This document shows, in pieces, positions 8,200 to 21,583 of a DNA stretch of 64,000 nt. Where the stretch lies: NCBI RefSeq assembly GCF_900142785.1, contig NZ_FRCD01000024.1:1-64000 (forward strand), written 5' to 3'. This DNA comes from Chryseobacterium carnipullorum. Lineage in GTDB: Bacteria > Bacteroidota > Bacteroidia > Flavobacteriales > Weeksellaceae. The translations under genes and the position numbers were made by a program. Under the pieces are notes generated by a model, which was given only the letters and a program-made list of their open reading frames with translations, was not told where the DNA came from and did no database searches. The stretch's first letter is position 1, and each line of letters opens with the position of its first letter.

Positions 8200-9090
8200 C
8201 TATTTATCCTGAGGTATCGGATTAAACTGTGAGTTTTCGATTGTGAGTTTCTTCGTTGTAAGATCGTAGTGGTCATTCATAGACATGACATGTACGGTAA
8301 GATTATCAATTGAAATCGGTTCTCCAAGATTGATATTCGTTAGGTTGGTGTCTTTAATAAATCTTCCGTCTACCAGAATCACAAGCCCGGAACCTACAGC
8401 AGTCATGACATCATCATGGATAAAAAGTCCGGTATCTTCACCCAAACCAATTCCTAAGGTTCTCGGATTATTAACCACTGCCTGGAACAGACGCCCGATT
8501 CTGCCTCGCTGTACAAAATGGGTATCGATGATGACATTATCGATCAGACCAAGTCCCTGAGTTGTTTTGATCTCTCCCTTTAAAAGAGATTCTGAGCTGC
8601 TTCCCTGATAAATCATGTTTTCAGAAGCTGCGGCAGCGCCAGCAGAAGTTCCGGAATAGATAAAATCCTGTTCCTGATATTTCAGTAAAATAGTATCGTG
8701 AAATCTTGTTCCCCCCAGAATAGAAGTCAGTCTAAGCTGATCTCCTCCTGTGAACATCACCACATCTGCAGCATTGGCTCTTGCTGCCATAGCATCAGAA
8801 TTGGCCTCTTCACGGTTGTGGATGTCTAGGATGTTTACATTTTTGGCACCCAGAAATTCAAAAGCTTTTTTGTATTCGGTACCTACAATCTGAGGGATTT
8901 GGGACGCTGTCGTCACAATTTCGATGACAGAATTTTCCTTGTGTTTTGATTCATTGATAATCTTTCTCAAGATTCCTCTTTCAAAGAAATTAAGGTTTTT
9001 TTCAATGCTCTGATCGAAATCGGTTTCTGCAAAACTTCCTTTGTTTACAGCGCCTCCGATAATAATTAATTTTCCAACGGGTCTCATCAT
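8200..9090 (-). CDS. cphB: Cyanophycinase
   Basis: Serine exopeptidase (family S51) that removes beta-Asp-Arg dipeptides from cyanophycin. From the ATG at 9090 the protein has 296 residues. The nucleophile motif GTSAGAAAAS places Ser149. KLIIIGGAVNKGSF at the N-terminus and VVMFTGGDQLRL near 110 are family hallmarks. A TTG at 9099 and a second ATG at 9087 are alternative starts; 9090 or 9087 is preferred because the -7 box at 9097-9104 would start transcription at about this point, giving an almost leaderless message. The gene is divergent from cyanophycin synthetase. Confidence 0.93.
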   Translation of the reverse strand: MMRPVGKLIIIGGAVNKGSFAETDFDQSIEKNLNFFERGILRKIINESKHKENSVIEIVTTASQIPQIVGTEYKKAFEFLGAKNVNILDIHNREEANSDAMAARANAADVVMFTGGDQLRLTSILGGTRFHDTILLKYQEQDFIYSGTSAGAAAASENMIYQGSSSESLLKGEIKTTQGLGLIDNVIIDTHFVQRGRIGRLFQAVVNNPRTLGIGLGEDTGLFIHDDVMTAVGSGLVILVDGRFIKDTNLTNINLGEPISIDNLTVHVMSMNDHYDLTTKKLTIENSQFNPIPQDK

Positions 9091-9096
9091 AGTGTG

Positions 9097-9104
9097 CAAA
9101 TTTA
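9097..9104 (-). promoter_or_regulatory. -7 box of the cyanophycinase promoter
   Basis: Read on the minus strand this is TAAATTTG, a perfect match to TAnnTTTG. Its distance to the ATG implies a leader of only a few nucleotides. The -33 position falls on the edge of the left arm of the inverted repeat at 9124-9145; no exact TTG is present there, but a TTTCG is found at 19 nt spacing. Confidence 0.55.
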
Positions 9105-9288: not shown

Positions 9289-11919
9289 ATGAAAATTGAG
9301 AAGATACAGGCACTACGCGGCCCAAATATCTGGAGTATCAGAAGAAAGAAGCTGATACAGATGAGATTGGACCTGGAAGAAATGGAAAATTATCCTACGA
9401 ATAAGATCGACGGTTTCAGAGAAAGAATCCAAAAACTTATTCCATCTCTGATTACCCACAGATGCTCAGAAGGAGTAGAAGGCGGATTTTTTCACAGGAT
9501 AGAAACAGGTACCTGGATGGGACATGTCATCGAGCACATAGCGCTGGAAATACAGACGCTGGCAGGGATGGATGTAGGTTTCGGAAGGACCAGGGAAACA
9601 AAATCACCGGGAATATATAATGTGGTCTTTAATTATATTGAAGAGAATGCGGGGATCTATGCTGGTGAAGAAGCGGTAAAAATCGCTGAAGCTCTTATTG
9701 AAGATAAAGAATACGATATTCAGGCCTGTATTCACAAATTAAAGGAGATCAGAGAACGGGTCCGTCTGGGACCCTCTACAGGTAGTATTGTGGAAGAAGC
9801 TGTTTCCAGAAAAATTCCATGGATCAGATTAGGAACAAATTCTTTGGTACAGCTTGGTTATGGGGTAAATCAGCAGCGTTTTCAGGCTACCATTACAGGA
9901 AAAACAAGCTCCATTGCAGTAGATATTGCATGCAATAAAGAATTAACAAAGAAAATGCTTCATGATGCTGCTATTCCGGTTCCTATTGGGGATCTGATTG
10001 TAGACGAAGAAGGGTTGAATGAGGTGATCAGTAAAATTGGCTATCCTATCGTTCTGAAACCGCTGGACGGAAATCATGGAAAAGGCTCTTCCATTAACGT
10101 CAACGATTGGGAAGCTGCAAAAATAGGATTGGAGCATGCCCAGAAATATTCACGAAAAGTCATTGTAGAAAAATACATTACCGGATATGATTTCAGGGTT
10201 TTAGTCATTAATAATAAAATGGTGGCTGCCGCAAGAAGAGTTCCTGCTCATGTAGTAGGCGATGGTGAAATGACCATTCAGCAGCTGATAGATAAAGAAA
10301 ATAGCGATCCGAGAAGAGGATATGGTCACGAAAATGTCCTTACTGAAATAGAAGTGGATAAGGACACCATGGAACTTCTTGAAAAGCTCCATTATACCCT
10401 TGAAACAGTTCCTCAAAAAGGAGAAGTTGTTTATTTAAAATCAACGGCTAATCTTTCTACGGGAGGAACATCCATAGACGTTACAGATATGGTACATCCT
10501 GAAAATATAACGATGGCTGAAAGAGTATCTAAAATTATAGGTCTGGATGTCTGCGGTATTGATATTATGGCTGAAAACCTTACACAGCCTTTAAAAGAGA
10601 GCGGAGCTGCCATTATAGAAGTGAATGCGGCACCGGGATTCAGAATGCACCTTGCACCAAGTGAAGGTCTTCCAAGAAATGTAGCTGCTCCGGTTGTGGA
10701 TATGCTCTATCCTCCCGGAAAGCCTTATACGATTCCTATTATTGCAGTAACAGGAACGAATGGCAAAACAACAACAACAAGACTGATTTCCCATATTGTA
10801 AAAAGCAACGGGTACAGAGTAGGTTTTACAACTTCCGACGGTATTTATATCCAAAATACCATGTTAACAAAAGGAGACACCACAGGACCACTTTCTGCTG
10901 AATTTGTTTTAAAAGATCCTACGGTAGAGTTTGCTGTTTTGGAAACAGCCAGAGGAGGTATCCTGCGTTCAGGCTTAGGCTTTTCACAGTGTGATATAGG
11001 AGTTTTGACCAATATTGAGGAAGATCATTTGGGAATGAACGACATTCATAATCTGAAAGACCTTACCAAGGTAAAAAGAGTTGTTCTGGATAGTGTGAAG
11101 AAAGGTGGTTGGAGCGTACTGAATGCTGATAATGAATATTCTATGAAGATCATGAATGATATTGACAGCAATATCGCGATCTTCAGCATGGATGAAAACA
11201 ATCCTCATATTGTAAAGTTTGCCAAAGAAGGAAGAATTACCTGCATTTATGAAGAAGGTTTTGTAACCATCAAAAAAGGAGACTGGAAGATCAGAATAGG
11301 AAAAGCCAAAGACTTCCCGATTACAATGGAAGGCAAGGCGAGATTTATGATCGAAAATGTTTTGGCAGCCAGTTTAGCAAGTTATCTCTATGGTTTTGGC
11401 ATTGAAGATATTTCTAATTCTCTGAGAACTTTTATTCCAAGTGCGCAGCTTACGCCCGGAAGGCTGAATATTTTTAAATTCAAAAGTTTTAAGGTACTGA
11501 TTGATTTTGCACATAATCCTTCAGGGTACGAGGCCATCGAAGATTATCTTAAAAATGTAGAATCTACAAAGAAAATTGGTATTATTTCCGGAGTGGGTGA
11601 CAGACGTGACAGTGATATCCGCGAGTGCGGGAAAATTGCGGGTAGAATGTTTGATTATATCATCATCAGAAATGAAAAGCACCTGAGAGGGAGAACGGAA
11701 GAAGAGATCAACGGACTGATCATTGACGGGATCAATGAAGCAGGAAGAGATGTAAGCTATGAGATCATTCCTAAAGAAATAGAAGCCCTTAAGCATGCCA
11801 TGGGAATGGCTGAGGACGGGACTTTTATCACTGCCTTAAGTGACGTTATTTCGAATGCTATTGACCTTGTTCAGGAGTATCAGGCAAGAGAGATTCAGGA
11901 AGAAGATAAAAATTCATAG
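9289..11919 (+). CDS. cphA: Cyanophycin synthetase
   Basis: An 876-residue two-ligase enzyme that builds multi-L-arginyl-poly-L-aspartate, a nitrogen and carbon reserve, using two ATP per Asp-Arg unit. Residues 1-160 form the N-terminal domain. About 215-475 is the ATP-grasp domain (YPIVLKPLDGNHGKG at 252-266, IIEVNAAPGFRMH at 442-454), which adds aspartate to the backbone. About 482-876 is a Mur-ligase-like domain with the P-loop GTNGKTTTTR at 489-498 and the substrate-binding FAHNPSGYEAI region, which attaches arginine. All key motifs are intact and the length is typical. It is divergent from cphB and ends at a strong terminator. Confidence 0.97.
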   Translation: MKIEKIQALRGPNIWSIRRKKLIQMRLDLEEMENYPTNKIDGFRERIQKLIPSLITHRCSEGVEGGFFHRIETGTWMGHVIEHIALEIQTLAGMDVGFGRTRETKSPGIYNVVFNYIEENAGIYAGEEAVKIAEALIEDKEYDIQACIHKLKEIRERVRLGPSTGSIVEEAVSRKIPWIRLGTNSLVQLGYGVNQQRFQATITGKTSSIAVDIACNKELTKKMLHDAAIPVPIGDLIVDEEGLNEVISKIGYPIVLKPLDGNHGKGSSINVNDWEAAKIGLEHAQKYSRKVIVEKYITGYDFRVLVINNKMVAAARRVPAHVVGDGEMTIQQLIDKENSDPRRGYGHENVLTEIEVDKDTMELLEKLHYTLETVPQKGEVVYLKSTANLSTGGTSIDVTDMVHPENITMAERVSKIIGLDVCGIDIMAENLTQPLKESGAAIIEVNAAPGFRMHLAPSEGLPRNVAAPVVDMLYPPGKPYTIPIIAVTGTNGKTTTTRLISHIVKSNGYRVGFTTSDGIYIQNTMLTKGDTTGPLSAEFVLKDPTVEFAVLETARGGILRSGLGFSQCDIGVLTNIEEDHLGMNDIHNLKDLTKVKRVVLDSVKKGGWSVLNADNEYSMKIMNDIDSNIAIFSMDENNPHIVKFAKEGRITCIYEEGFVTIKKGDWKIRIGKAKDFPITMEGKARFMIENVLAASLASYLYGFGIEDISNSLRTFIPSAQLTPGRLNIFKFKSFKVLIDFAHNPSGYEAIEDYLKNVESTKKIGIISGVGDRRDSDIRECGKIAGRMFDYIIIRNEKHLRGRTEEEINGLIIDGINEAGRDVSYEIIPKEIEALKHAMGMAEDGTFITALSDVISNAIDLVQEYQAREIQEEDKNS

Positions 11920-11936
11920 GAAGATCAATAATTATA

Positions 11937-11968
11937 AAAACAGCGGCTGAATTTTCAGCCGCTGTTTT
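11937..11968. terminator. Bidirectional terminator between cphA and the minus-strand cluster
   Basis: AACAGCGGCTGAA and TTCAGCCGCTGTT form a GC-rich stem with A-rich 5' and T-rich 3' flanks. It lies between cphA (plus) and the convergent MepB-like gene (minus) and could stop transcripts from both sides. Confidence 0.85.
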
Positions 11969-12037: not shown

Positions 12038-12565
12038 TTATGTAGCTTTGAATGAAGATACAGACTGTTTTAATTTAAAATCAAACAAGAGTTTAACTTT
12101 TTGAAGATATAATTCTGATCGATCAGAAAGATCAATAAAGTAGTCCATCTGCCATACTTGAGTAGCTTTTGCCTGTTTGCTTTCTGTATGATCCCAACCA
12201 GGATAGACCCTGATTCCTCTTTTTCCCATTTTGTTTTCATGAGACAAGATTCCTTTTTTTACAAGTATTTCTTTCGGGAAAATAAAAATACCTTTCTCAT
12301 TATCTTTTGAGGCTGAGATCAGATAGAAATTATAAGGATCATCCGAATCAAACGGAGCTGTTTCTCCTTGGTCATTCCGTTTCCATATCGTAACGAACTG
12401 ACCTGTTTTTGCAGGCGTTATTTTTGCTGTACGGAATTTAATGTTCAGACCATTCAGGGTAAAGCTACAACCAGAATATTCTCTGCATTCAAGATCTTCC
12501 TCTGCATCTAAAAGTTTCAGGCCAAGCGGCTGAAAAATGGTTTCATCAACATTTTGAAGAGTCAT
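12038..12565 (-). CDS. MepB-family protein
   Basis: A 175-residue soluble protein. Its segments REYSGCSFTLNGLNIKFRTAKITPAKTG (quoted in parts: REYSGCSF, IKFRTAKITP, KTGQFVTIWKR) and MGKRGIRVYPGWD match the MepB family, named from the mepRAB locus of Staphylococcus aureus, in which its role is unknown. No catalytic signature is evident. It is the last gene of a nine-gene minus-strand run, 67 nt after the preceding gene, and may be transcribed with the amide-ligase cluster or separately. Its link to that cluster is by position only. Confidence 0.75.
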   Translation of the reverse strand: MTLQNVDETIFQPLGLKLLDAEEDLECREYSGCSFTLNGLNIKFRTAKITPAKTGQFVTIWKRNDQGETAPFDSDDPYNFYLISASKDNEKGIFIFPKEILVKKGILSHENKMGKRGIRVYPGWDHTESKQAKATQVWQMDYFIDLSDRSELYLQKVKLLFDFKLKQSVSSFKAT

Positions 12566-12632
12566 TATTGTCTTTCTGTAATTATTAAAAATTAGGGATT
12601 AAAAATGATTTCATGATGGTTTATTCTAAAGA

Positions 12633-13817
12633 CTATTCCTCTCCAAAAAATGCATTGGAGCTTCCGATCCAAATCGCATCCTTTTTATTAAAATCTACGT
12701 TGACCATCGCTGCTTTTGTCATTCTTCCAAGATTTTCCAGCAGAATAGGGCGTTCCTGGTCTTCATGCCATACATACAACAGACGGATCTCTGCTTTTGA
12801 AAACTCACCGTTAATATCTTCAAAAATAGGTTCATAAGTTACTTTTCTCTGCAAAATATAATTTTCCTTATCGATGATAGTTTCTGTGATTTCTTTTGTA
12901 GGATTTAAATTCACCCCGCTGCCCGCAAATGAAAACAAAGGTTTTAATACAAAGTTTTCCAGGTTTTCATGTTCAGGAAATTCGTTCAGGAAATAGCTTT
13001 TCGGAACAAAATCATGTTTCAGCATCGGAAGAAGAAACTTCGAGATTTTAAAGAACCAGTTGGGATGAGTGATCCATTTTACGTCAATATCTTCACGGAA
13101 ATCAAATCCGGCTTTTACATCGGGAATCCGGTCCAGTTCATCAAAGATAACACGGTTGTAAATTCTTTTGATTTCAAAGAGTTGTCCATCATTTTCATAG
13201 AATAATTTCCGGCCCTCTTTTTTTACTTTCGTCAGACAGACTGTTTTTATACCGAGTAATTTTTCTGTTAATGCAAAATCTATGGCTGTTTTCTGTTTTT
13301 CCGGAAATATTTCAAGCAGAATAACATTTTCAGGATTTTCGTCGCCTACGATCAGTTTTTTCAAATGATTTTTAAACTCATCATCAGGCATTTTATTTCT
13401 GATTTCCGAGAGAAAGGGATAGACCTCACAAAAAGTTTCTTCAAAAGTCTTTTGAAAAGCATATAATGAAGGGAAGGCCTGCAGCTCGATCAGTTGCGGT
13501 TCTATGGCTCCGTTTTCGCTTCTGCAGATCCCAAAATCTATTGTGAAAAAGTGAGGTTGAAGCGTGTCGTTGGGAACCCTGCAGTTTTCAGGAACTGCTT
13601 TATAAAGAGTTTCAGTAGGAAGTTCTTTGATTTGGTCAATAATACTGTTGCTGGCGTCAAGGAGTTTGTTCTTAAATTCATGGGTAAGAAAAAGCGGACT
13701 TTCTGAAATTCGGAATGCCGGCTCAATACCTCCTTTCTGAGCGAGACGATCTTTAAGTTTTTCGTATTTCTCCTGCGAAAACTCCTGGTTAAATTGCTTT
13801 CTGTATTTTGGGATCAT
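12633..13817 (-). CDS. Divergent ATP-grasp-like protein
   Basis: A 394-residue protein of unrecognised family. The C-terminal third has ATP-grasp features: FVLKPLFSFAGSG (about 290-302) resembles the lysine plus glycine-rich loop, YILQRKVTY resembles the adenine-hinge strand, and AEIRLLYVWH with ENLGRMTKA could supply metal ligands. The central acidic stretch FELDRIPDV-like and 'IDFGICRSENGAIEPQLIEL' (read in parts) suggest further nucleotide or metal contacts, possibly in a circularly permuted order. By position, between the amidotransferase and the MepB-like gene, it would be a third ligase of the cluster. The assignment is tentative; the gene itself is certain. Confidence 0.7.
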   Translation of the reverse strand: MIPKYRKQFNQEFSQEKYEKLKDRLAQKGGIEPAFRISESPLFLTHEFKNKLLDASNSIIDQIKELPTETLYKAVPENCRVPNDTLQPHFFTIDFGICRSENGAIEPQLIELQAFPSLYAFQKTFEETFCEVYPFLSEIRNKMPDDEFKNHLKKLIVGDENPENVILLEIFPEKQKTAIDFALTEKLLGIKTVCLTKVKKEGRKLFYENDGQLFEIKRIYNRVIFDELDRIPDVKAGFDFREDIDVKWITHPNWFFKISKFLLPMLKHDFVPKSYFLNEFPEHENLENFVLKPLFSFAGSGVNLNPTKEITETIIDKENYILQRKVTYEPIFEDINGEFSKAEIRLLYVWHEDQERPILLENLGRMTKAAMVNVDFNKKDAIWIGSSNAFFGEE

Positions 13818-13917
13818 ATTTTTTTCTTTGTGGTTTGATTTTAAAAAATCGAGCAGTGATTGCCCGATTTTAGTTTTATTATGGTTAATACAATATCTTA
13901 TTGATTGTATAAAAAGT

Positions 13918-14751
13918 TTACGCTAAAGCTTCACTTCCTTTCAAAATGTTTTTTTTTGCTGACTGAAGAAACCTTGGCAGAATCTGGGCTCTCGTAAGAA
14001 TGATCTTGTTTTCATCGTCTATTCTGTCTACCGTTTCAAGATATTTCTCCATTCCGAAATTCTCGATCATTGCCGTTTTGTTCTTCTCGTCTTTCAGATT
14101 TTCGATCATGCCTTGCGGATCAGCTTCCGGATGGAACTGGGTCCCGAAGATTTCATCCGAGAAACGAACAGCCATTACCGCTCTTTCCAGATTGATATGC
14201 GGTCTGGATTTCTCAATGGCCATGATTTTCATCCCCAACTCATCAAAACGGTCCATATCCGGTTCAATAAACTGATAAGCTCTTGAATCTACGGCATAAA
14301 AAGGATCCTGAAGATTTTTGAATAAAAATTCCTGCTCTCCTTCTTCTGTTTTATGAACGGGCATTACACCAAAAGAATAAGATCTTCTTTTACAGATATT
14401 ACCAAGCTTCCAGTGAATACTTGCCAACTGGAATGAGTGGCAGATCAGGAACAGATATTTTTTATCCTCATTATATTGGTTGTGCTTTAAAACAGCATTA
14501 AGAAAACCTGCATATCTGTCCTCCCACTCCAGACCTTCTCTGTGTGGATTTCCCGGTCCGCCCGAAGAAATAAAAATGTCAAAATCGTCAATGTTCGGCA
14601 TTTCATTCTTGAACCTTACCTCAAATGTTTGGATGATCACATTTTCTTCAGAGCTTTGCTGGAATGCCTCGGAAATCTCTTTAATATTTCTAAAGCCTTG
14701 ATTGACATGATTGTTGTTCATATCCAGCAGAGCGATTCGAATATCTTTCAT
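13918..14751 (-). CDS. Class I glutamine amidotransferase-like protein
   Basis: A 277-residue protein with the class I GATase fold. FDIFISSGGPGNP at about 57-69 is the oxyanion region, Cys104 in LFLICHSFQ is the nucleophile, and His207 with Glu209 (GTQFHPEAD) complete the triad. The elbow around the cysteine is I-C-H-S-F-Q in place of the usual G-x-C-x-G-x-Q, so the oxyanion and ammonia-channel details may differ; it may hydrolyse gamma-glutamyl bonds other than free glutamine. A C-terminal extension of about 60 residues is not part of the domain. It lies 36 nt after the GCS2-type ligase. Confidence 0.88.
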   Translation of the reverse strand: MKDIRIALLDMNNNHVNQGFRNIKEISEAFQQSSEENVIIQTFEVRFKNEMPNIDDFDIFISSGGPGNPHREGLEWEDRYAGFLNAVLKHNQYNEDKKYLFLICHSFQLASIHWKLGNICKRRSYSFGVMPVHKTEEGEQEFLFKNLQDPFYAVDSRAYQFIEPDMDRFDELGMKIMAIEKSRPHINLERAVMAVRFSDEIFGTQFHPEADPQGMIENLKDEKNKTAMIENFGMEKYLETVDRIDDENKIILTRAQILPRFLQSAKKNILKGSEALA

Positions 14752-14787
14752 AACTACTTCATATTTTTTGTAAAGTTACCAAAAATA

Positions 14788-15906
14788 TTATGAAGCCATT
14801 TCTCCGTGGGTGATACCATACTCCGTTTCAGAGATCATATAATCTACTACTTTGGTAAGATCTCCGGTTTCTTTATATACCTGAAGCTGACGATCTGCAC
14901 CCGTTCCGTTTTCTAAAATGGTCCAGGCATATTCCACTTCTTTTCTGCAGTCCAGCTCATCTACAACATCGTCGATGAATTCCAGAAGTTCCTTCAGCAG
15001 ATGTGGATAGGGAACAGATTCTTCTTTTCCGAAATCAATAAGATGGGCCTCGATTCCGCTTTTTGAAGCCCGCCATTTATTCTCGTTTAACAGCAGTCTT
15101 CTGTAACTTCTGAAGCTCAGATTCTGCTGGTGAAGTTTATAAATTTTTGCAACCAGGCACTGCATAATAGCAGCCATACATACCGTTTCTTCTATTCTCA
15201 ATGGCATGTCGCAAATTCTGAACTCTATAGTAGGGTAGAATGGATGTACCCGGAGATCCCACCAGATTTTCTTGGCATTATCTATGGTTCCCGTTTTTAC
15301 CAAAAGATCTACATAGCTGTCAAACTCCGCTAATGAATTGAAATAGCTCGGAATCCCTGTTCTTGGAAACTTGACGAAGATCTCCTGTCTGTATGATTTA
15401 AAACCCGTATTTCTTCCGATCCAAAAAGGTGAATTGGTGGAAAGTGCGTACACGTGAGGAAGGAAATAGCGCATTACATTCTGAATTCTGACCCCTTCTT
15501 CACGGTTGGGAATTCCGATATGTACATGCAGCCCGAAAATAAGATTTCCGCGGGCAACATCTCCCATATCATCTACAATCTTGTTGTAACGTTCACCATT
15601 GGTGATGGTATTGTGTTCCCAGTTGGAAAAAGGATGCGTTCCGCCTCCGGAAACACGAAGGCCTTGTTCATGGGCGGTATTAATCAAATGTCTTCTTAAA
15701 TTCGTAAGTTCAGCTCTTGCTTCCTGAATGTTCTGGCAGATGCCCGTTTCCATTTCAATCATGGATTCGTGCATTTCGTGTTTTAAATTTTCACTTAAAA
15801 CCGCCTTTCCGCCTTCAATAATTTTCGAAACATGAGATATTAAGTCTCTGCTCTCAACATCAATAATCTGATATTCTTCTTCGATTCCTATGGTAAATTG
15901 ATGCAT
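14788..15906 (-). CDS. Carboxylate-amine ligase of the GCS2 (YbdK) family
   Basis: A 372-residue ATP-dependent ligase related to glutamate-cysteine ligase. GIEEEYQIID at 7-16 holds the acidic metal-binding cluster. Further conserved parts are EMETGICQN near 51, GGGTHPF near 87, GLHVHIGIP near 124 and the arginine-rich RVHPFYPTIEFRICDMP near 220. These fit the COG2170 type, which forms an amide bond between a glutamate-like gamma-carboxylate and an amine. The true substrates in Bacteroidota are unknown. Spacings of 27 nt from the ATP-grasp gene above and 36 nt to the amidotransferase below indicate one operon. Confidence 0.9.
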   Translation of the reverse strand: MHQFTIGIEEEYQIIDVESRDLISHVSKIIEGGKAVLSENLKHEMHESMIEMETGICQNIQEARAELTNLRRHLINTAHEQGLRVSGGGTHPFSNWEHNTITNGERYNKIVDDMGDVARGNLIFGLHVHIGIPNREEGVRIQNVMRYFLPHVYALSTNSPFWIGRNTGFKSYRQEIFVKFPRTGIPSYFNSLAEFDSYVDLLVKTGTIDNAKKIWWDLRVHPFYPTIEFRICDMPLRIEETVCMAAIMQCLVAKIYKLHQQNLSFRSYRRLLLNENKWRASKSGIEAHLIDFGKEESVPYPHLLKELLEFIDDVVDELDCRKEVEYAWTILENGTGADRQLQVYKETGDLTKVVDYMISETEYGITHGEMAS

Positions 15907-15933
15907 TTCTTTTCGTGTTTTTTATTTAAATAT

Positions 15934-16887
15934 TTATTTTACTGAATCTTTTACGAAGGTGCCCCACGAAATATTAGGTTTTCCAGGAACATATTCTTTA
16001 GCTTTTTCAATAGCCAGTTTAGCCGAATGTTCAACGATCCATGCAAAGTTTTCCTCGCCTACAGAATTTCGGTCTGCATCAGGAGCCGGATTGCAGAAAT
16101 CGATAGCATAGGGAATTCCGTCTCTGATTGCAAATTCTACTGTATTGAAATCATAGCCGAGGGCTTCATTCATAGTGATCGTGTAATCATGAATCGTTTT
16201 TAATAGTTTTTCCAGCTCTGCCCCCTGAGTCTGATGTGTTGTGGCATATCTCAAATGATGGGCATTACGGGGTTCATAAGGCATAATATGAACATATTTT
16301 TTACCCAGACAATAAACCCTGTAGTAATCATCGAAAACAATTTCTTCCTGAACCATCATGACCAGTTGTTCTGTTTCGCTTAATTTATTCCAGAGATCAT
16401 CCGGATTTTCAACTCTGTAAACGCTTTTCCAGCCGCCACCGTCATGAGGTTTCATATAAGCAGGAAAACCTACATAATCGAAAATATATTCCCAGTCGTG
16501 AGGAAACTTAAGGTTCCTGAATGAGGTTTCGGAGGTATCAGTTGGTCTTTCGTGCGAAGGAAGCAATACCGTTTTAGGAAGCGGAATTCCCAGTTTTGAC
16601 ATCAGTGCATTATTGAAAAATTTTTCATCCGCACTCCACCAGAAAGGATTATTGATAACATAAGTTCCGTTGAGTGCTGCATTTTTCAAATACGCTCTGT
16701 AAAAAGGAACATCCTGCGAAATTCTGTCGATAATGACTGCATAGCCGTAATCAGCGCCTTGTTCTAGTTTGTCGATATTTACCGGTTCAGCAATGATTTC
16801 TCCGCCACCCAGCTCATTCACTTTGTCGATAAACGCCCAAGGAAATGTATCTTCCATACCGAATAGAATTCCCACTTTTTTTGCCAT
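15934..16887 (-). CDS. ATP-grasp ligase (RimK/D-Ala ligase superfamily)
   Basis: A 317-residue ATP-grasp enzyme. FPAYMKPHDGGGWKSVYRV (about 149-167) contains the ATP-binding lysine and glycine-rich loop. MVQEEIVFDDYYRVYC carries the hinge and a substrate-contact arginine. The C-terminal metal ligands lie in NTVEFAIRDGIPYAIDFCNPAPD (Glu, Asp and Asn, quoted as TVEFAIRDG and AIDFCNPAPD). Such enzymes make an acyl phosphate and pass it to an amine or thiol. Substrate specificity cannot be read from the sequence. The gene sits between the esterase-like gene and the GCS2-type ligase. Confidence 0.88.
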   Translation of the reverse strand: MAKKVGILFGMEDTFPWAFIDKVNELGGGEIIAEPVNIDKLEQGADYGYAVIIDRISQDVPFYRAYLKNAALNGTYVINNPFWWSADEKFFNNALMSKLGIPLPKTVLLPSHERPTDTSETSFRNLKFPHDWEYIFDYVGFPAYMKPHDGGGWKSVYRVENPDDLWNKLSETEQLVMMVQEEIVFDDYYRVYCLGKKYVHIMPYEPRNAHHLRYATTHQTQGAELEKLLKTIHDYTITMNEALGYDFNTVEFAIRDGIPYAIDFCNPAPDADRNSVGEENFAWIVEHSAKLAIEKAKEYVPGKPNISWGTFVKDSVK

Positions 16888-16947
16888 AATTTCTGTTTTT
16901 TAATTGATGTATGTATTATTATTTTATCTTCTTAAATGTACTGCTTT

Positions 16948-17661
16948 TCAGGAAAAAAAGGCACCTATAAATGTGGGAAATACCATTCTCCACAAGGTCC
17001 AGTCGTGATTGATCCATTTTCTTTCATCATACCAGAAATCAATCCCTTTTGAGCGTAAAATCTCAGCCATTTCAATGTTTTTATCCCTGCAGATATCCTG
17101 GTCAGAAGTACTCAGGACAATGTGCATATGCTTGTATTTCCAGGCTTCATCATTCTTCACAAATTCTTTCGGGCAATTAAAATAGACCAGTTCATCAGAA
17201 TATCCATCCATAAAATTCCTGATGCTGAATGCTCCCGAAAGGCAGAATAAATGCGAAACTACATCCGGAAATCTGAACGCAAAATTGGCAGCATGATAAC
17301 CTCCGAAACTTGCTCCGGCCACTGCAACACGGTGGGTTTTGTGCATCTTCTGGATATAGGGAATGAATTCCTGAATAAGAAACTGCATATACAGCTCATA
17401 ATTCTTTATCCTTTGCTGAGGCGAAATCTTTTCGTCATAAAAACTCCATGCATCAATAGTCTGAATATTATAAAGTTTTACTTTCCCTTGTTCTACAAAC
17501 CAGTTGATACTTCCATTAAGATGGAAATCGTTATTTTGGGTATACTGTCCCTGAGAAGTGGGAAACATGATGATCGGATGACCATAATGTCCGGTAACTT
17601 CTACCTTAAGACGGGTTCCCAATATATTTGAATAATAATCTGTATGTTCTATATGCGGCAT
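16948..17661 (-). CDS. Alpha/beta-hydrolase of the putative esterase family
   Basis: A 237-residue hydrolase without a signal peptide, so cytoplasmic. The nucleophile elbow is GASFG at 116-120 (Ser118) after RVAVA, an acidic residue lies in STSDQDICRD, and the histidine is in WINHDWTLW near the C-terminus. It belongs to the esterase D/enterochelin-esterase-like family, which hydrolyses or transfers acyl groups. In this operon it could trim, release or cyclise the ligase product; that role is inferred from the neighbours only. Gaps are 28 nt to the upstream and 60 nt to the downstream gene. Confidence 0.88.
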   Translation of the reverse strand: MPHIEHTDYYSNILGTRLKVEVTGHYGHPIIMFPTSQGQYTQNNDFHLNGSINWFVEQGKVKLYNIQTIDAWSFYDEKISPQQRIKNYELYMQFLIQEFIPYIQKMHKTHRVAVAGASFGGYHAANFAFRFPDVVSHLFCLSGAFSIRNFMDGYSDELVYFNCPKEFVKNDEAWKYKHMHIVLSTSDQDICRDKNIEMAEILRSKGIDFWYDERKWINHDWTLWRMVFPTFIGAFFS

Positions 17662-17689
17662 TATAAATTTTCTTTTGTTATACGGTGTT

Positions 17690-18901
17690 TTAGCTGGTCA
17701 ATTTGCTTTTGGGAGGTAAAATATTCAGCATTTCAGCCTGAATTTTTTCTGCAGCGCTGTCTAATCTTTCCTGTATAATATCCGGGTCTGTAGATTTATA
17801 AACAATTCCCACATGGTAATCAATCGGAAGGAAACTGACCGCTTCTTCACTTTCAAAAGCAGTGTAATCAGGATGTTTGTCTTTGATCAGGGCTACGATG
17901 AGTCCGGAATAGTAACCGGTAGGTTTTGAAGCCTTATAGCTTTTTCCACGCAGCAGGGCATCTTCAATTTTGGCCCATTCGCGCCAGATATTAATATTGC
18001 TGGAGGCTTCAACAAGATCCGGAATATGGGCACCACCAACCCTGGAAGAGGTTTCAAGGAAATACCATTTCCCGTCAGCTTTTCCACGGATAAATTCAGT
18101 GTGTGTAGCCCCGTTGAGAAGTCCGAAACTGGAAAGAACCTTTGCATTCACTTCGTCAAGAGCTTTAAATTCCTCAGAATATCTTCCCAGAGTTTTGGAT
18201 CGGAATACCCCTCCTTCATGAGAAACCTGCATAGGCGGAGCCAGATATTTGGAAGCCGCGGTAAAGACAATTTCTTTGTTAAAGGTCAGGCTGTCTACGT
18301 GATAAACATCTCCTGGTTTAAAGCTTTCAAGCAGAAACAGGTGTCGCTCTTCCCCGAGTGATTCCAGTTCAGCCCAGAGGTCATCTTTGGAAGAAAACTT
18401 TTTAATGCCCGATGCAGATGCTTCCGAACGGGGTTTTAATACCCACGGACCCGGAACTTTTTCTGTAAAATTGTTGACCTCATCATTATTAAATACTGCC
18501 GTGAACTCGGGAACATTAATTCCCGAATCTTTTGCCTTCTGACGCATTGCCAGTTTATCTCTGAAATACCTGTGAGTAGTCTGTCCCATTCCGGGAATGC
18601 GGAATGTTTCTCTGATCAGTGCTGCTTTTTCTACATCATAATCATCAAGTGCGACCACAGCATCTATTTTTCTGGTTTTCATCAAATGTGAAAATCCCTG
18701 AACGAGATGTTCCAGATTCCACACAGATGGCTTCAGTTCAGACATATAAAAGACCTCGTCAATAGCATGCCATGGCCAGTTTTTCTCTTTAAGACTCTCT
18801 GATGTTACTAAGATGATTTTATTACCGAGCTTCTTCATTTCATCCATGAAGTCATAGCCCTTGTAATAGCACGAAATACATACTATAATTTTCTCCTCCA
18901 T
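17690..18901 (-). CDS. ATP-grasp ligase (carboxylase/PurK-like type)
   Basis: A 403-residue ATP-grasp protein. An N-terminal Rossmann-like domain (about 1-105, starting KIIVCISCYYKGYDF) is followed by GPWVLKPRSEASASGIKKF at about 156-174 for ATP binding, LLESFKPGDVYHVDSL, and metal ligands in HTEFIRG and WYFLETSSRVGGAHI near 270-290. This resembles the family used in dipeptide and small amide synthesis (for example L-amino-acid ligases), but the substrates are unknown. It is the first gene of the tightly spaced block and has a good promoter directly upstream, so it probably starts the operon. Confidence 0.9.
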   Translation of the reverse strand: MEEKIIVCISCYYKGYDFMDEMKKLGNKIILVTSESLKEKNWPWHAIDEVFYMSELKPSVWNLEHLVQGFSHLMKTRKIDAVVALDDYDVEKAALIRETFRIPGMGQTTHRYFRDKLAMRQKAKDSGINVPEFTAVFNNDEVNNFTEKVPGPWVLKPRSEASASGIKKFSSKDDLWAELESLGEERHLFLLESFKPGDVYHVDSLTFNKEIVFTAASKYLAPPMQVSHEGGVFRSKTLGRYSEEFKALDEVNAKVLSSFGLLNGATHTEFIRGKADGKWYFLETSSRVGGAHIPDLVEASSNINIWREWAKIEDALLRGKSYKASKPTGYYSGLIVALIKDKHPDYTAFESEEAVSFLPIDYHVGIVYKSTDPDIIQERLDSAAEKIQAEMLNILPPKSKLTS

Positions 18902-18930
18902 ATAATGTTTTTTAATTTTTAGTAAATTAT

Positions 18931-18964
18931 CAAAGATAAAAGCGTATTTCTATTGATTAATCAA
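18931..18964 (-). promoter_or_regulatory. Promoter of the amide-ligase cluster
   Basis: On the minus strand TTG (18964-18962), a 23-nt spacer and TATCTTTG (18938-18931) fit the Bacteroidota promoter pattern, at the long end of usual spacings. The -7 box ends 29 nt before the ATG of the 403-residue ATP-grasp gene. The -33 element sits inside a 14-bp palindrome. Confidence 0.6.
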
Positions 18965-19041: not shown

Positions 19042-20457
19042 TTAGTGATAATTTTCCATTAAATCGGCCAGCAATTGTACTCCAAAACCGGTTGCTGCCT
19101 TCTCCTTTGCGTATCCCGTACTTCCGAAGGCAACACCTGCGATGTCCAGATGGGCCCATCGAGGATGGTTTTCAATAAACTGCTCCAAAAATTTAGCGGC
19201 TACGATACAATCTCCGATAGGTTTCATTGAGATATTTTTAAGGTCTGCCACATCAGATTGAATATCATCTTTCCATACCTCCCACAAAGGAAGATTCCAT
19301 ACTCTTTGATTGGTGGTATCTCCGGTTTTTATCAAAATATTTTTCAATTCATCATTGTTGGAAAACATCGCTCCACAAGTATCACCGAACATTCTGACAG
19401 AACTTCCCGTCAGCGTCGCAAGATCGATAAGGAAATCTGTTTTATAGTTTTTTGACAGATAAGAAAGACCATCTGCAAGAATCATTCTGCCTTCTGCATC
19501 TGTATTCAGTACTTCAATGGTTTTTCCGTTGTAGGCAGTGATGACATCACTTGGAAGGAAAGCATTTTCAGAGATTGCATTGTCTGTGATAGGAAGTACC
19601 GCCACAATATTCACCGGAAGTTTCATCTCTGCTGCGTAAATTAATGTTCCGATAACAGCTGTTGCACCCCCCATATCAGACTTCATATAGTGCATATTGT
19701 CCGGATTCTTCAGAGAGATTCCACCGGTATCAAAAAGAACGCATTTTCCCACCAGACCAAATGTTTTGGCATTTTTTACTTGGGTTTTATATTCTATGAT
19801 CGTAAAGGCAGCATCATAAGCGCTTCCCTGATTGACTGAAAGATAAGCGCCAAGACCTAATTCCTCGCATTTCTTCCTGTTAAATACCGTGTACTTTAAA
19901 TCGTATTTCTTTGCTAAATTTTTAAGGTAAAGACTTAAAATGTCTGGTTTCTTAAGATTGGCCGGTTTGTTCAGCCATTCCTGACAGGCCGTCTGCCCGT
20001 TAGCCAGTGCTTCGGCTTTTTCACTGATACCATCTAATTTTTTCTGGCTTAAATTTTCAAAGTGAATCTCAAATCTGGAGTTCCAGAACGCATGCTTTTT
20101 GTCAAAAGGATAATGGTAAGTTCCCAACAATAAGCCTTTTACGAATTCTGAGAACTGTTTTTCGTTCAGAAAATCTGCTAAAACCAAAGTAGGCACAGCC
20201 TGGATTTTTTCGTTCTGGGTTTGAGTAAATTTTACCGCCACCTGCTGGACTTCGAAGTTCTGCAGGGTAGATTTTCCCAAGCCGATCAGATAAGTGATAC
20301 TTTCTGAATCAGTATGAATAAATACCTCATGTTTCTTTCCGCTGAAAAAGGGGGCTATATTTTTATTGTATTTTTTACCCGATTTTTTCCATTCTTCTTC
20401 TGTGAAAAGTTGAAAAATCTGGGTGTAGTTTTTATTTTTTTTATTGATTAGTTTCAT
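19042..20457 (-). CDS. Leucyl aminopeptidase, family M17
   Basis: A 471-residue cytosolic metallo-aminopeptidase that removes N-terminal residues from peptides with two metal ions. The metal-binding set is complete: GK at 237-238, LFDTGGISLK at 241-250 (Asp243, Lys250), MKSDMGGA at 258-265 (Asp261) and the family signature NTDAEGRM at 318-325 (Asp320, Glu322). The N-terminal domain (1-160) is divergent, as usual. It lies 4 nt after the esterase gene above, so those two are co-transcribed, and 140 nt before the ATP-grasp promoter. It may process peptides made or used by the cluster, or simply be housekeeping. Confidence 0.93.
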   Translation of the reverse strand: MKLINKKNKNYTQIFQLFTEEEWKKSGKKYNKNIAPFFSGKKHEVFIHTDSESITYLIGLGKSTLQNFEVQQVAVKFTQTQNEKIQAVPTLVLADFLNEKQFSEFVKGLLLGTYHYPFDKKHAFWNSRFEIHFENLSQKKLDGISEKAEALANGQTACQEWLNKPANLKKPDILSLYLKNLAKKYDLKYTVFNRKKCEELGLGAYLSVNQGSAYDAAFTIIEYKTQVKNAKTFGLVGKCVLFDTGGISLKNPDNMHYMKSDMGGATAVIGTLIYAAEMKLPVNIVAVLPITDNAISENAFLPSDVITAYNGKTIEVLNTDAEGRMILADGLSYLSKNYKTDFLIDLATLTGSSVRMFGDTCGAMFSNNDELKNILIKTGDTTNQRVWNLPLWEVWKDDIQSDVADLKNISMKPIGDCIVAAKFLEQFIENHPRWAHLDIAGVAFGSTGYAKEKAATGFGVQLLADLMENYH

Positions 20458-20461
20458 AAAC

Positions 20462-21583
20462 TTAATTTTTAATACTTTGTTGTTGTGGTTGTACTTCTAC
20501 GGGATTTTCTGTGTTGTCGTAGAAAAGCCATTCAATAGCTCTTGGGAATTCCTGAGACCAGTAAAATTCACTGTGGGTTCCTTCCGGATTGATGCTGGTT
20601 TTAAACTCAAAATCAAAAAGATTTTTCTTCTCCCAGCGTTTTAAATATTCTTCAAAAACATGGATTCTTTTGACCATCTTAGAGCCTTCCTGACCTCCTC
20701 CGTAGAGATAGATCTTTGTTTTAAACGGAACTCTGAAGTTCATCATCGGGAAATTATTATTCGGCTCTACCCACAGTGACGGAGAGAAAATCAGCAGTTT
20801 AGAATAAACCTCCGGATAAAGAAAACCACTGTAAATGCTGATCAGTGCACCTAAAGAGCTGCCTCCGATTCCTGTATTGTCACGATCCTTTTTGGTGCGG
20901 TAGTGGTCATCCACAAAAGGTTTTAAAGTGTCTGTGATGAAGCGGATGTATTTTTTACCCTCAGAGCCATTGGCTACATGATCATTATCAAAAATATATT
21001 CCTTGATACGCTCTTCACTGCCGTGTTCTATAGCTATAATAATGACATCGCCACGGCTGTATTCCGCAAGGATAGACAGTTTCTTATCAATTTCCCAGTT
21101 TCCGTACCCGCTTCCTTCGTTGAAAAGATTTTGAGCATCCTGAAGATAAAGGACAGGATAACTTTTGTCTGCAACATAGTAATCATAGGGGAGAACAGCC
21201 CATACTTTCCGGTACCGTTCAAGTTGTGGAATATAAAATTCGTCAGAAATCACTTCTGCAATCGGGAAGAATTCTTTTTTGAAAGGTCCCCAGTTGAGCC
21301 TCCATTTTTCTATGATATCTGATGCCTTTCCCACGGACTTTTCAGCCTTACGGTTGGGGGTGATATTTCCATATTTGTCGAGCTCTACATTTTCCCAACC
21401 TCCTTTCGTGAATTTGTATTCCACAATATCGGCAAGGATTTCGCTATTGATCTCAATGAAATAATGGTGTGAATCCAGCTGTTTAAGCTGATAATTGGAA
21501 TCTCTGGGGTTCCAGTTGTTGAAATTTCCGGTGATGTATACCGTTCTGTCGTCGCTTTCTTCTGTATAAAGTTCAAACCTCAT
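20462..21583 (-). CDS. Esterase with N-terminal glycogen-binding-like domain
   Basis: A 373-residue protein. Residues 1-75 resemble a starch/glycogen-binding (CBM20 or CBM48-like) sandwich: VYITGNFNNWNP at 15-26 is the hallmark phrase and is also present in GlgB next door. Residues about 110-350 are an enterochelin-esterase-like alpha/beta-hydrolase with GSSLG at 241-245 (Ser243) and His in EGTHSEFYW. No signal peptide was seen. The binding domain and the divergent glgB suggest an action on glycogen or a glycogen-linked acyl group; this is inference. Related domain pairings are usually annotated simply as hydrolases. Confidence 0.85.
   Translation of the reverse strand: MRFELYTEESDDRTVYITGNFNNWNPRDSNYQLKQLDSHHYFIEINSEILADIVEYKFTKGGWENVELDKYGNITPNRKAEKSVGKASDIIEKWRLNWGPFKKEFFPIAEVISDEFYIPQLERYRKVWAVLPYDYYVADKSYPVLYLQDAQNLFNEGSGYGNWEIDKKLSILAEYSRGDVIIIAIEHGSEERIKEYIFDNDHVANGSEGKKYIRFITDTLKPFVDDHYRTKKDRDNTGIGGSSLGALISIYSGFLYPEVYSKLLIFSPSLWVEPNNNFPMMNFRVPFKTKIYLYGGGQEGSKMVKRIHVFEEYLKRWEKKNLFDFEFKTSINPEGTHSEFYWSQEFPRAIEWLFYDNTENPVEVQPQQQSIKN

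Follow-up and report, generated by a model that had tools for sequence, protein, structure and literature searches.

The window analysed here, the first 64,000 nucleotides of contig NZ_FRCD01000024.1 of Chryseobacterium carnipullorum, contains a minus-strand run of seven genes in the order (5' to 3') ATP1, ABH, ATP2, GCS2, GAT, ATP3 and MepB, in which several ATP-dependent ligases lie next to hydrolases. The most widely kept member, ATP2 (positions 15934 to 16887; 317 amino acids [aa]), is predicted to be an ATP-grasp ligase of the RimK/LysX/ArgX fold. It is preceded by ABH (16948 to 17661; 237 aa), an alpha/beta-hydrolase of the PF00756 esterase type, and followed by GCS2 (14788 to 15906; 372 aa), a carboxylate-amine ligase of the YbdK family and predicted gamma-glutamyl ligase; by GAT (13918 to 14751; 277 aa), which has a class I glutamine-amidotransferase fold and is a predicted peptidase or gamma-glutamyl hydrolase; and by ATP3 (12633 to 13817; 394 aa), a predicted ATP-grasp ligase of the glutathione-synthetase/GspS/YgiC fold. 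The run starts with ATP1 (17690 to 18901; 403 aa), an ATP-grasp enzyme similar to L-amino acid ligases, and ends with a MepB-like protein (12038 to 12565). The gaps from ATP1 to GAT are 28, 60, 27 and 36 nucleotides (nt) long, followed by 100 nt between GAT and ATP3 and 67 nt between ATP3 and MepB. The first-pass annotation of this DNA had delineated the same seven open reading frames (ORFs), five of them tightly spaced, and had read them as enzymes of stepwise, ATP-driven amide-bond formation. Enzymes for such steps are indeed present in a carrier-free run, and that interpretation is, overall, partly supported.

The cluster is a conserved unit and not a group of chance neighbours. Our searches covered Bacteroidota, with 395 sampled genomes, 98 genomes of the genus of the window, and named and further loci. 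ATP2, ATP3 and GCS2 are widespread in this phylum, and ATP2 is nearly universal in the genus, where it was present in 93 of 98 genomes, mostly with 90 to 100% identity (lowest full-length match, 76%); the closest named relative among the matches listed, from Chryseobacterium sp. OV279, was 100% identical. Profile matches to ATP2 were found in 136 of the 395 genomes and in 90 of 170 genera. Neighbourhoods were compared in the 80 named loci with the best ATP2 matches, one of which has no called ATP2 ORF and several of which are truncated by contig ends. A lack of synteny in related genomes would have refuted the first-pass annotation, but synteny was conserved: ABH-ATP2-GCS2-GAT-ATP3 formed a single same-strand run in 60 of these 80 loci (21 of 25 Weeksellaceae-type loci and 39 of 55 others), and taken one by one, ABH, GCS2, GAT and ATP3 shared the run with ATP2 in 72, 73, 69 and 67 loci, respectively. 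In 60 more diverse loci (57 with an ATP2 ORF), the five-gene run was complete in 12, since the set fragments or changes in deeper lineages. With one gene order found again and again in Bacteroidota, the arrangement is far beyond chance.

The main genes also tend to be retained or lost as a set, including copies that are unlinked. Before counting, we removed eight ATP2 matches (21 to 194 bits) and one ATP3 match (29 bits) and set aside 19 more divergent GCS2 matches (7 full-length ones at 478 to 489 bits and 12 at 301 to 394 bits), while truncated GCS2 genes at 439 and 470 bits (genomes G345 and G372) were retained. This left ATP2 in 128 genomes, ATP3 in 114 (115 before removal) and GCS2 in 110 (129 before removal). 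ATP2 and ATP3 were both present in 110 genomes and both absent from 263, with ATP2 alone in 18 and ATP3 alone in 4. ATP3 and GCS2 were both present in 109 genomes and both absent from 280, with ATP3 alone in 5 and GCS2 alone in 1; if all 129 GCS2 matches were retained, both occurred in 109, ATP3 alone in 5 and GCS2 alone in 20. ATP2 and ATP3 lay within 6 kb of each other in 61 of the 110 genomes that have both, within 30 kb in 3, and farther apart or on different contigs in 46, a number inflated by draft assemblies; true separation on a single contig was seen in G155, G139, G129 and G362. The five genus genomes without ATP2 gave no match to ATP3 or GCS2 with the same profiles. Loss as a set is the behaviour expected of genes for one metabolite. 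Every family of the cluster has members in separate pathways, but that we are looking at unrelated housekeeping enzymes placed side by side by accident is scarcely credible in view of the synteny across families and the co-inheritance of unlinked copies. The co-inheritance also argues against a separate housekeeping pathway for each enzyme, which would have refuted the first-pass annotation.

By its sequence, GCS2 is a YbdK-family ligase. It matched PF04107 with 218 bits and the NCBIfam model NF010039 (carboxylate-amine ligase) with 540 bits, compared with a cut-off of 371; hhalign aligned it to E. coli YbdK with an E value of 6.5e-47, and its structure matches were the YbdK-type entries 1r8g and 1tt4. 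The columns that are invariant in 30 aligned sequences include E9, E10, E11, H127 and H129, so that the run contains a GshA-kind ligase with conserved active-site-type residues, which is predicted to use gamma-glutamyl chemistry. YbdK-family ligases are known for small substrates.

ATP3 had no Pfam match at 0.001. Its AlphaFold2 model, with a predicted local distance difference test score (pLDDT) of 90.5, clearly has an ATP-grasp fold and places the protein in the group of glutathione synthetase, GspS and YgiC. Foldseek matched the model to glutathione synthetase 8fbz with an E value of 1.6e-14, and glutathione synthetases, GspS, YgiC/YjfC, Cp1B and trypanothione synthetase are among its first 26 matches. 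In the VIA comparison, ATP3 matched YgiC (7uk8) with a Z score of 25.0 over 343 aligned residues (root mean square deviation [RMSD], 3.6), followed by YjfC (24.6), GspS (24.2), homoglutathione synthetase (23.8) and Cp1B (22.3); GspS and the glutathione synthetases as a group scored 23 to 24. After these, scores drop to 12.0 for a putative gamma-glutamylcysteine synthetase and to below 8 for ordinary ATP-grasp enzymes. The first-pass annotation was right in calling ATP3 ATP-grasp-like, but it is a core member, with the predicted glutathione-synthetase/GspS fold, rather than an add-on. YgiC and YjfC are described as peptide-spermidine ligases in a sentence and a cited title of PMC12568646, and the E. 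coli annotation of ygiC likewise reads peptide-spermidine ligase.

These two ligases would also fit plain synthesis of glutathione or glutathionylspermidine, with GCS2 as GshA and ATP3 in place of GshB. Their near one-to-one co-occurrence and the predicted fold of ATP3, equal to that of glutathione synthetase, are consistent with this, as is the gamma-glutamyl:cysteine ligase activity with which YbdK is described in a title cited in PMC2588565. However, ATP2 and ATP1 would be left unexplained. Moreover, BshC, the thiol gene searched for, was present in all 80 genomes tested, whether or not they carry the cluster, which suggests that bacillithiol is already present. ABH was not matched at 0.001 by the model for S-formylglutathione hydrolase, the search not extending to glutathione genes at other sites in these genomes. 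We therefore consider plain glutathione synthesis improbable. The distribution of BshC, which shows no exclusion pattern, also makes it unlikely that the product of the cluster is the only thiol of the cells, and we rejected the idea of a sole low-molecular-weight thiol.

ATP2 had only weak sequence matches, to RimK and LysX. Its AlphaFold2 model (pLDDT, 85.5) suggests a RimK/LysX fold: VIA gave a Z score of 20.3 to RimK 5zct (261 aligned residues; RMSD, 2.9), about 19 to LysX/ArgX and 17 to 18 to D-Ala-D-Ala and graspetide ligases. ATP2 and ATP3 are not recent duplicates of each other, since a profile comparison revealed no similarity. The RimK fold raises the question of protein modification, in which residues attached to a protein by ATP2 would be taken off again by the peptidases. 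RimK, the best match of ATP2, was solved together with the protein RpsF, according to the title of entry 5zk6, and peptidases of several families are linked to the cluster; but no gene for a tag was seen in the gaps of the run that were looked at, ATP3 matches small-peptide ligases along its whole length, and the YbdK family is known for small substrates. Such a role seems quite unlikely to us.

GAT matched PF00117 with 36.9 bits, above the cut-off, and its residues Cys104, His207 and Glu209 were invariant in all 23 aligned sequences. In six loci (L077, L082, L086, L092, L093 and L097), the slot between GCS2 and ATP3 was occupied by a protein of about 339 aa that resembles M29 aminopeptidases, an assignment made from one member scanned against Pfam, and GAT was absent from all six stretches. 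That two unrelated hydrolase-type folds share one slot favours amide hydrolysis by GAT over the supply of ammonia, and its likelier role is that of a peptidase or gamma-glutamyl hydrolase. The first-pass annotation of a class I amidotransferase is thus correct for the fold, but probably not for the function.

A hydrolase of this kind next to a gamma-glutamyl ligase would also be expected in salvage of amines or amino acids. In the Puu route for putrescine, gamma-glutamylation marks the amine for breakdown; by analogy, GAT would be a PuuD-like hydrolase, and aminopeptidases and a class III aminotransferase would finish the degradation. Indeed, the class I fold of GAT has an intact triad, and M17, M29 and M42 peptidases occur close by. 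We counted neighbour families in 181 partly overlapping stretches, window included, and scanned one member each of the M42, amidohydrolase and aminotransferase families. An aminotransferase family (PF00202, class III) was close to the core in 18 stretches, always on the same strand, the scanned member being similar to ArgD or putrescine aminotransferase; an amidohydrolase family (PF07969 in the scanned member) was found in 7 stretches, and a family that we take, from its sequence, to be Gfo/Idh oxidoreductases in 4. Of the components of a Puu-type route, the ligase and the GAT fold are present, and the neighbour families, a minority of which were scanned, include a possible oxidoreductase in these 4 stretches. 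On the other hand, it would be wasteful for a breakdown route to employ two or three more ligases that consume ATP, and the aminotransferase was found mainly in Spirosomataceae-type loci and was absent from the genes scanned between 8200 and 21583 of the window. Salvage is thus unlikely, although it fits better than protein modification or plain glutathione synthesis.

We consider it an even bet that the cluster encodes a pathway which works without a carrier, follows a glutathione-type logic and makes either a small gamma-glutamyl peptide or a peptide-amine conjugate. In this pathway, whose order of reactions we infer, GCS2 would activate the gamma-carboxylate of glutamate with ATP and join it to an amino compound X to give gamma-Glu-X. 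ATP3 would then phosphorylate the free carboxylate of gamma-Glu-X and add a second amine Y, which may be an amino acid, a polyamine or a similar compound, and ATP2 might add another residue or prepare X. GAT, or the M29 aminopeptidase in other lineages, could take off a gamma-glutamyl group or a terminal residue in order to complete the product or to recycle it, and ABH would hydrolyze an ester. The set may be extended by ATP1 and an M17 aminopeptidase in Chryseobacterium and in scattered relatives. Cp1B, which has the same fold as ATP3, needs no alpha-amino acid as the acid partner, according to PMC12568646; the gamma-glutamyl assignment therefore rests mainly on GCS2. The wider proposal is slightly less probable: about a quarter of the sampled Bacteroidota would make, beside bacillithiol, a novel glutathione-like compound, either a gamma-glutamyl peptide or a peptide-polyamine conjugate; GCS2, ATP3 and ATP2 would build it, and peptidases that can replace one another would turn it over. 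In that case, a phylum that is common in the environment would have a hitherto unknown peptide metabolite, served by ligases and peptidases of its own.

Several findings weigh against this pathway. The Fisher values for co-occurrence ignore phylogeny. GCS2 had no match in 5 of the 114 ATP3-positive genomes, and two loci (L069 and L070) retain ATP2-GAT-ATP3 without GCS2. ATP3 is missing in 18 ATP2-positive genomes, nine of which have some GCS2 match (seven at 478 to 489 bits). In five loci of ATP3-less genomes, ATP2 is followed by another ATP-grasp protein, CPG, which is weakly similar to models of circularly permuted ATP-grasp enzymes and, when compared with ATP3 as a possible orthologue, gave an hhalign probability of 5.6 and an E value of 0.007; three of these loci have a further PF00756-type esterase after GAT. 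Several loci have ATP2 without other core genes close by. By sequence, ATP3 resembles YgiC weakly (hhalign E value, 6e-5; probability, 64), and no resemblance to E. coli GspS was seen. Finally, with BshC in every genome tested, a new thiol is not needed.

Among known systems, the biosynthesis of glutathione, homoglutathione, glutathionylspermidine and trypanothione is one of the closest: a gamma-glutamyl ligase family and an ATP-grasp enzyme of the glutathione-synthetase fold are shared, and both are stand-alone and carrier free. The second ligase is also co-inherited with the first, since 109 of the 115 genomes with either ATP3 or GCS2 have both (divergent GCS2 set aside). In contrast to these systems, the cluster adds a RimK-fold ligase, a peptidase of the GAT fold or M29 type and an esterase, and BshC is present as well. 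YgiC and YjfC of E. coli, the best structural matches of ATP3 and tied with GspS, are only 14 to 15% identical to it, and ygiC adjoins ygiB, outside any multi-ligase cluster. Pathways independent of nonribosomal peptide synthetases, such as those with the E-64 ligase Cp1B or for dapdiamide and cystargolide, likewise form amide bonds stepwise with stand-alone ATP-dependent enzymes; however, the scanned window genes include no oxygenase or ANL-type amide synthetase, and the cluster is widely conserved in its phylum. The same general idea, linked ATP-grasp and GS-fold ligases with peptidases, is reportedly found in the amidoligase neighbourhoods of Iyer et al. (2009). Among the titles and abstract starts listed in our literature search, there was no description of this cluster and, in agreement with the first-pass annotation, no assigned product. 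In many Bacteroidota, stand-alone peptide-bond enzymes thus form a matched set that resembles machinery for a glutathione-like small molecule.

The first-pass annotation had also stated that there is no peptide precursor or carrier protein. The gaps of the run are 27 to 140 nt long, and in the two largest we found no precursor or carrier among ORFs of at least 20 aa, small genes that overlap large ones or lie elsewhere in the genome not being sought; one of these gaps holds two short opposite-strand ORFs and the other none of that size. The run thus combines several ATP-dependent ligases with no carrier or precursor gene in the gaps. A graspetide cluster, that is, one for a ribosomally synthesized and posttranslationally modified peptide, was rejected because no precursor gene was found beside an ATP-grasp gene in these gaps, and a LysX/ArgX-LysW pathway because they hold no gene for a LysW-type carrier and the LysX model gave only 25 bits, compared with a cut-off of 275.6. 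A plasmid-borne element was also rejected, since a search of 72,556 plasmid records gave no ATP2 match at 1e-5.

As for the individual families, those named in the first-pass annotation held for GCS2, GAT, ABH and MepB by Pfam or NCBIfam; ATP1 and ATP2 are weak by sequence, and ATP3 is ATP-grasp by predicted fold. Of the five tightly spaced genes named there, ABH, ATP2, GCS2 and GAT belong to the core, but ATP1 is an accessory member found in Chryseobacterium and scattered relatives. Outside the genus, ATP1 had strong matches (above 370 bits) in 14 of 40 ATP2-positive and 0 of 40 ATP2-negative genomes, hand-picked from listings rather than random, and the remaining matches were below 30 bits. 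Its Pfam-type ATP-grasp matches were all sub-threshold; phmmer matched it to the L-amino acid ligase 4wd3 of the PDB with an E value of 5.6e-19, so that it appears nearest to L-amino acid ligases. ABH retains S118, D189 and H219 in nearly all of 24 aligned sequences, the one in L087 having lost the serine motif. The MepB-like protein (PF08877, 164.9 bits), annotated as a following member, is probably incidental and was rejected as a part of the system, as 3 of the 181 stretches carry it, one being the window and the others named loci from Chryseobacterium.

Upstream of ATP1 and on the same strand lie an M17 leucyl-aminopeptidase-family gene (19042 to 20457; PF00883, 352 bits) and, adjoining it, a PF00756 esterase with an extra N-terminal region (20462 to 21583). 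Of the 181 stretches, 29 have the M17 gene close to the core, and it often travels with ATP1; an M42 peptidase was a neighbour in L212, and the same family was found in L226. Beside ABH or ATP2, 52 of the 181 stretches hold a second PF00756-type esterase, without exception on the opposite strand (one member scanned; for example, L063 to L064, L066 to L067 and L073 to L075). In seven loci (L173, L174, L178, L183, L184, L194 and L066), a protein of about 310 aa directly precedes ATP2; the one member scanned (L183) is an alpha/beta hydrolase. Loci L101 to L106 have ATP2 relatives with 31 to 36% identity, and the other core genes are absent from these stretches. In L143 (Chryseobacterium sp. E1), GAT and ATP3 are each split into two ORFs, perhaps by frameshifts or assembly errors.

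A TTTG-N17-23-TANNTTTG pattern, whose TANNTTTG box is presumably of the Bacteroidota -7 type, occurred 6 times in the window, compared with a shuffle mean of 4.28, and sigma-70-type sites were as frequent as in shuffles. In the stretch that corresponds to 18902 to 18960, such a box begins 37 nt ahead of ATP1 in 11 of 24 Weeksellaceae-type loci. Even before GAT, where most of the stretch is coding, the motif was matched in 21 of 23 loci, and by itself it is therefore weak evidence. An RNA element was likewise rejected, as no Rfam family reached its gathering score between 8000 and 24000.

Downstream of the run lie genes for a cyanophycin synthetase (cphA, 9289 to 11919, convergent with the cluster; TIGR02068, 1267 bits) and, beyond it, a cyanophycinase (cphB, 8200 to 9099; TIGR02069, 229 bits). 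The two adjoin the cluster, but that it is a cyanophycin-related module is very improbable: only 13 of the 181 stretches have cphA close to the core, each time on the opposite strand and always in the family of the window, as judged by genus name or kinship label, and a terminator-like stem-loop of 14 bp with a T-rich tail (11937 to 11968, minus strand) separates it from the run. This stem is the longest of 11 terminator-like sites in the region (shuffle mean, 7.7). We thus rejected the link, and the cyanophycin genes look incidental to the cluster. An isoaspartyl dipeptidase of Bacteroidota is stated to be undiscovered in PMC10206079, and the M17 gene at 19042 to 20457 is a possible candidate for it.

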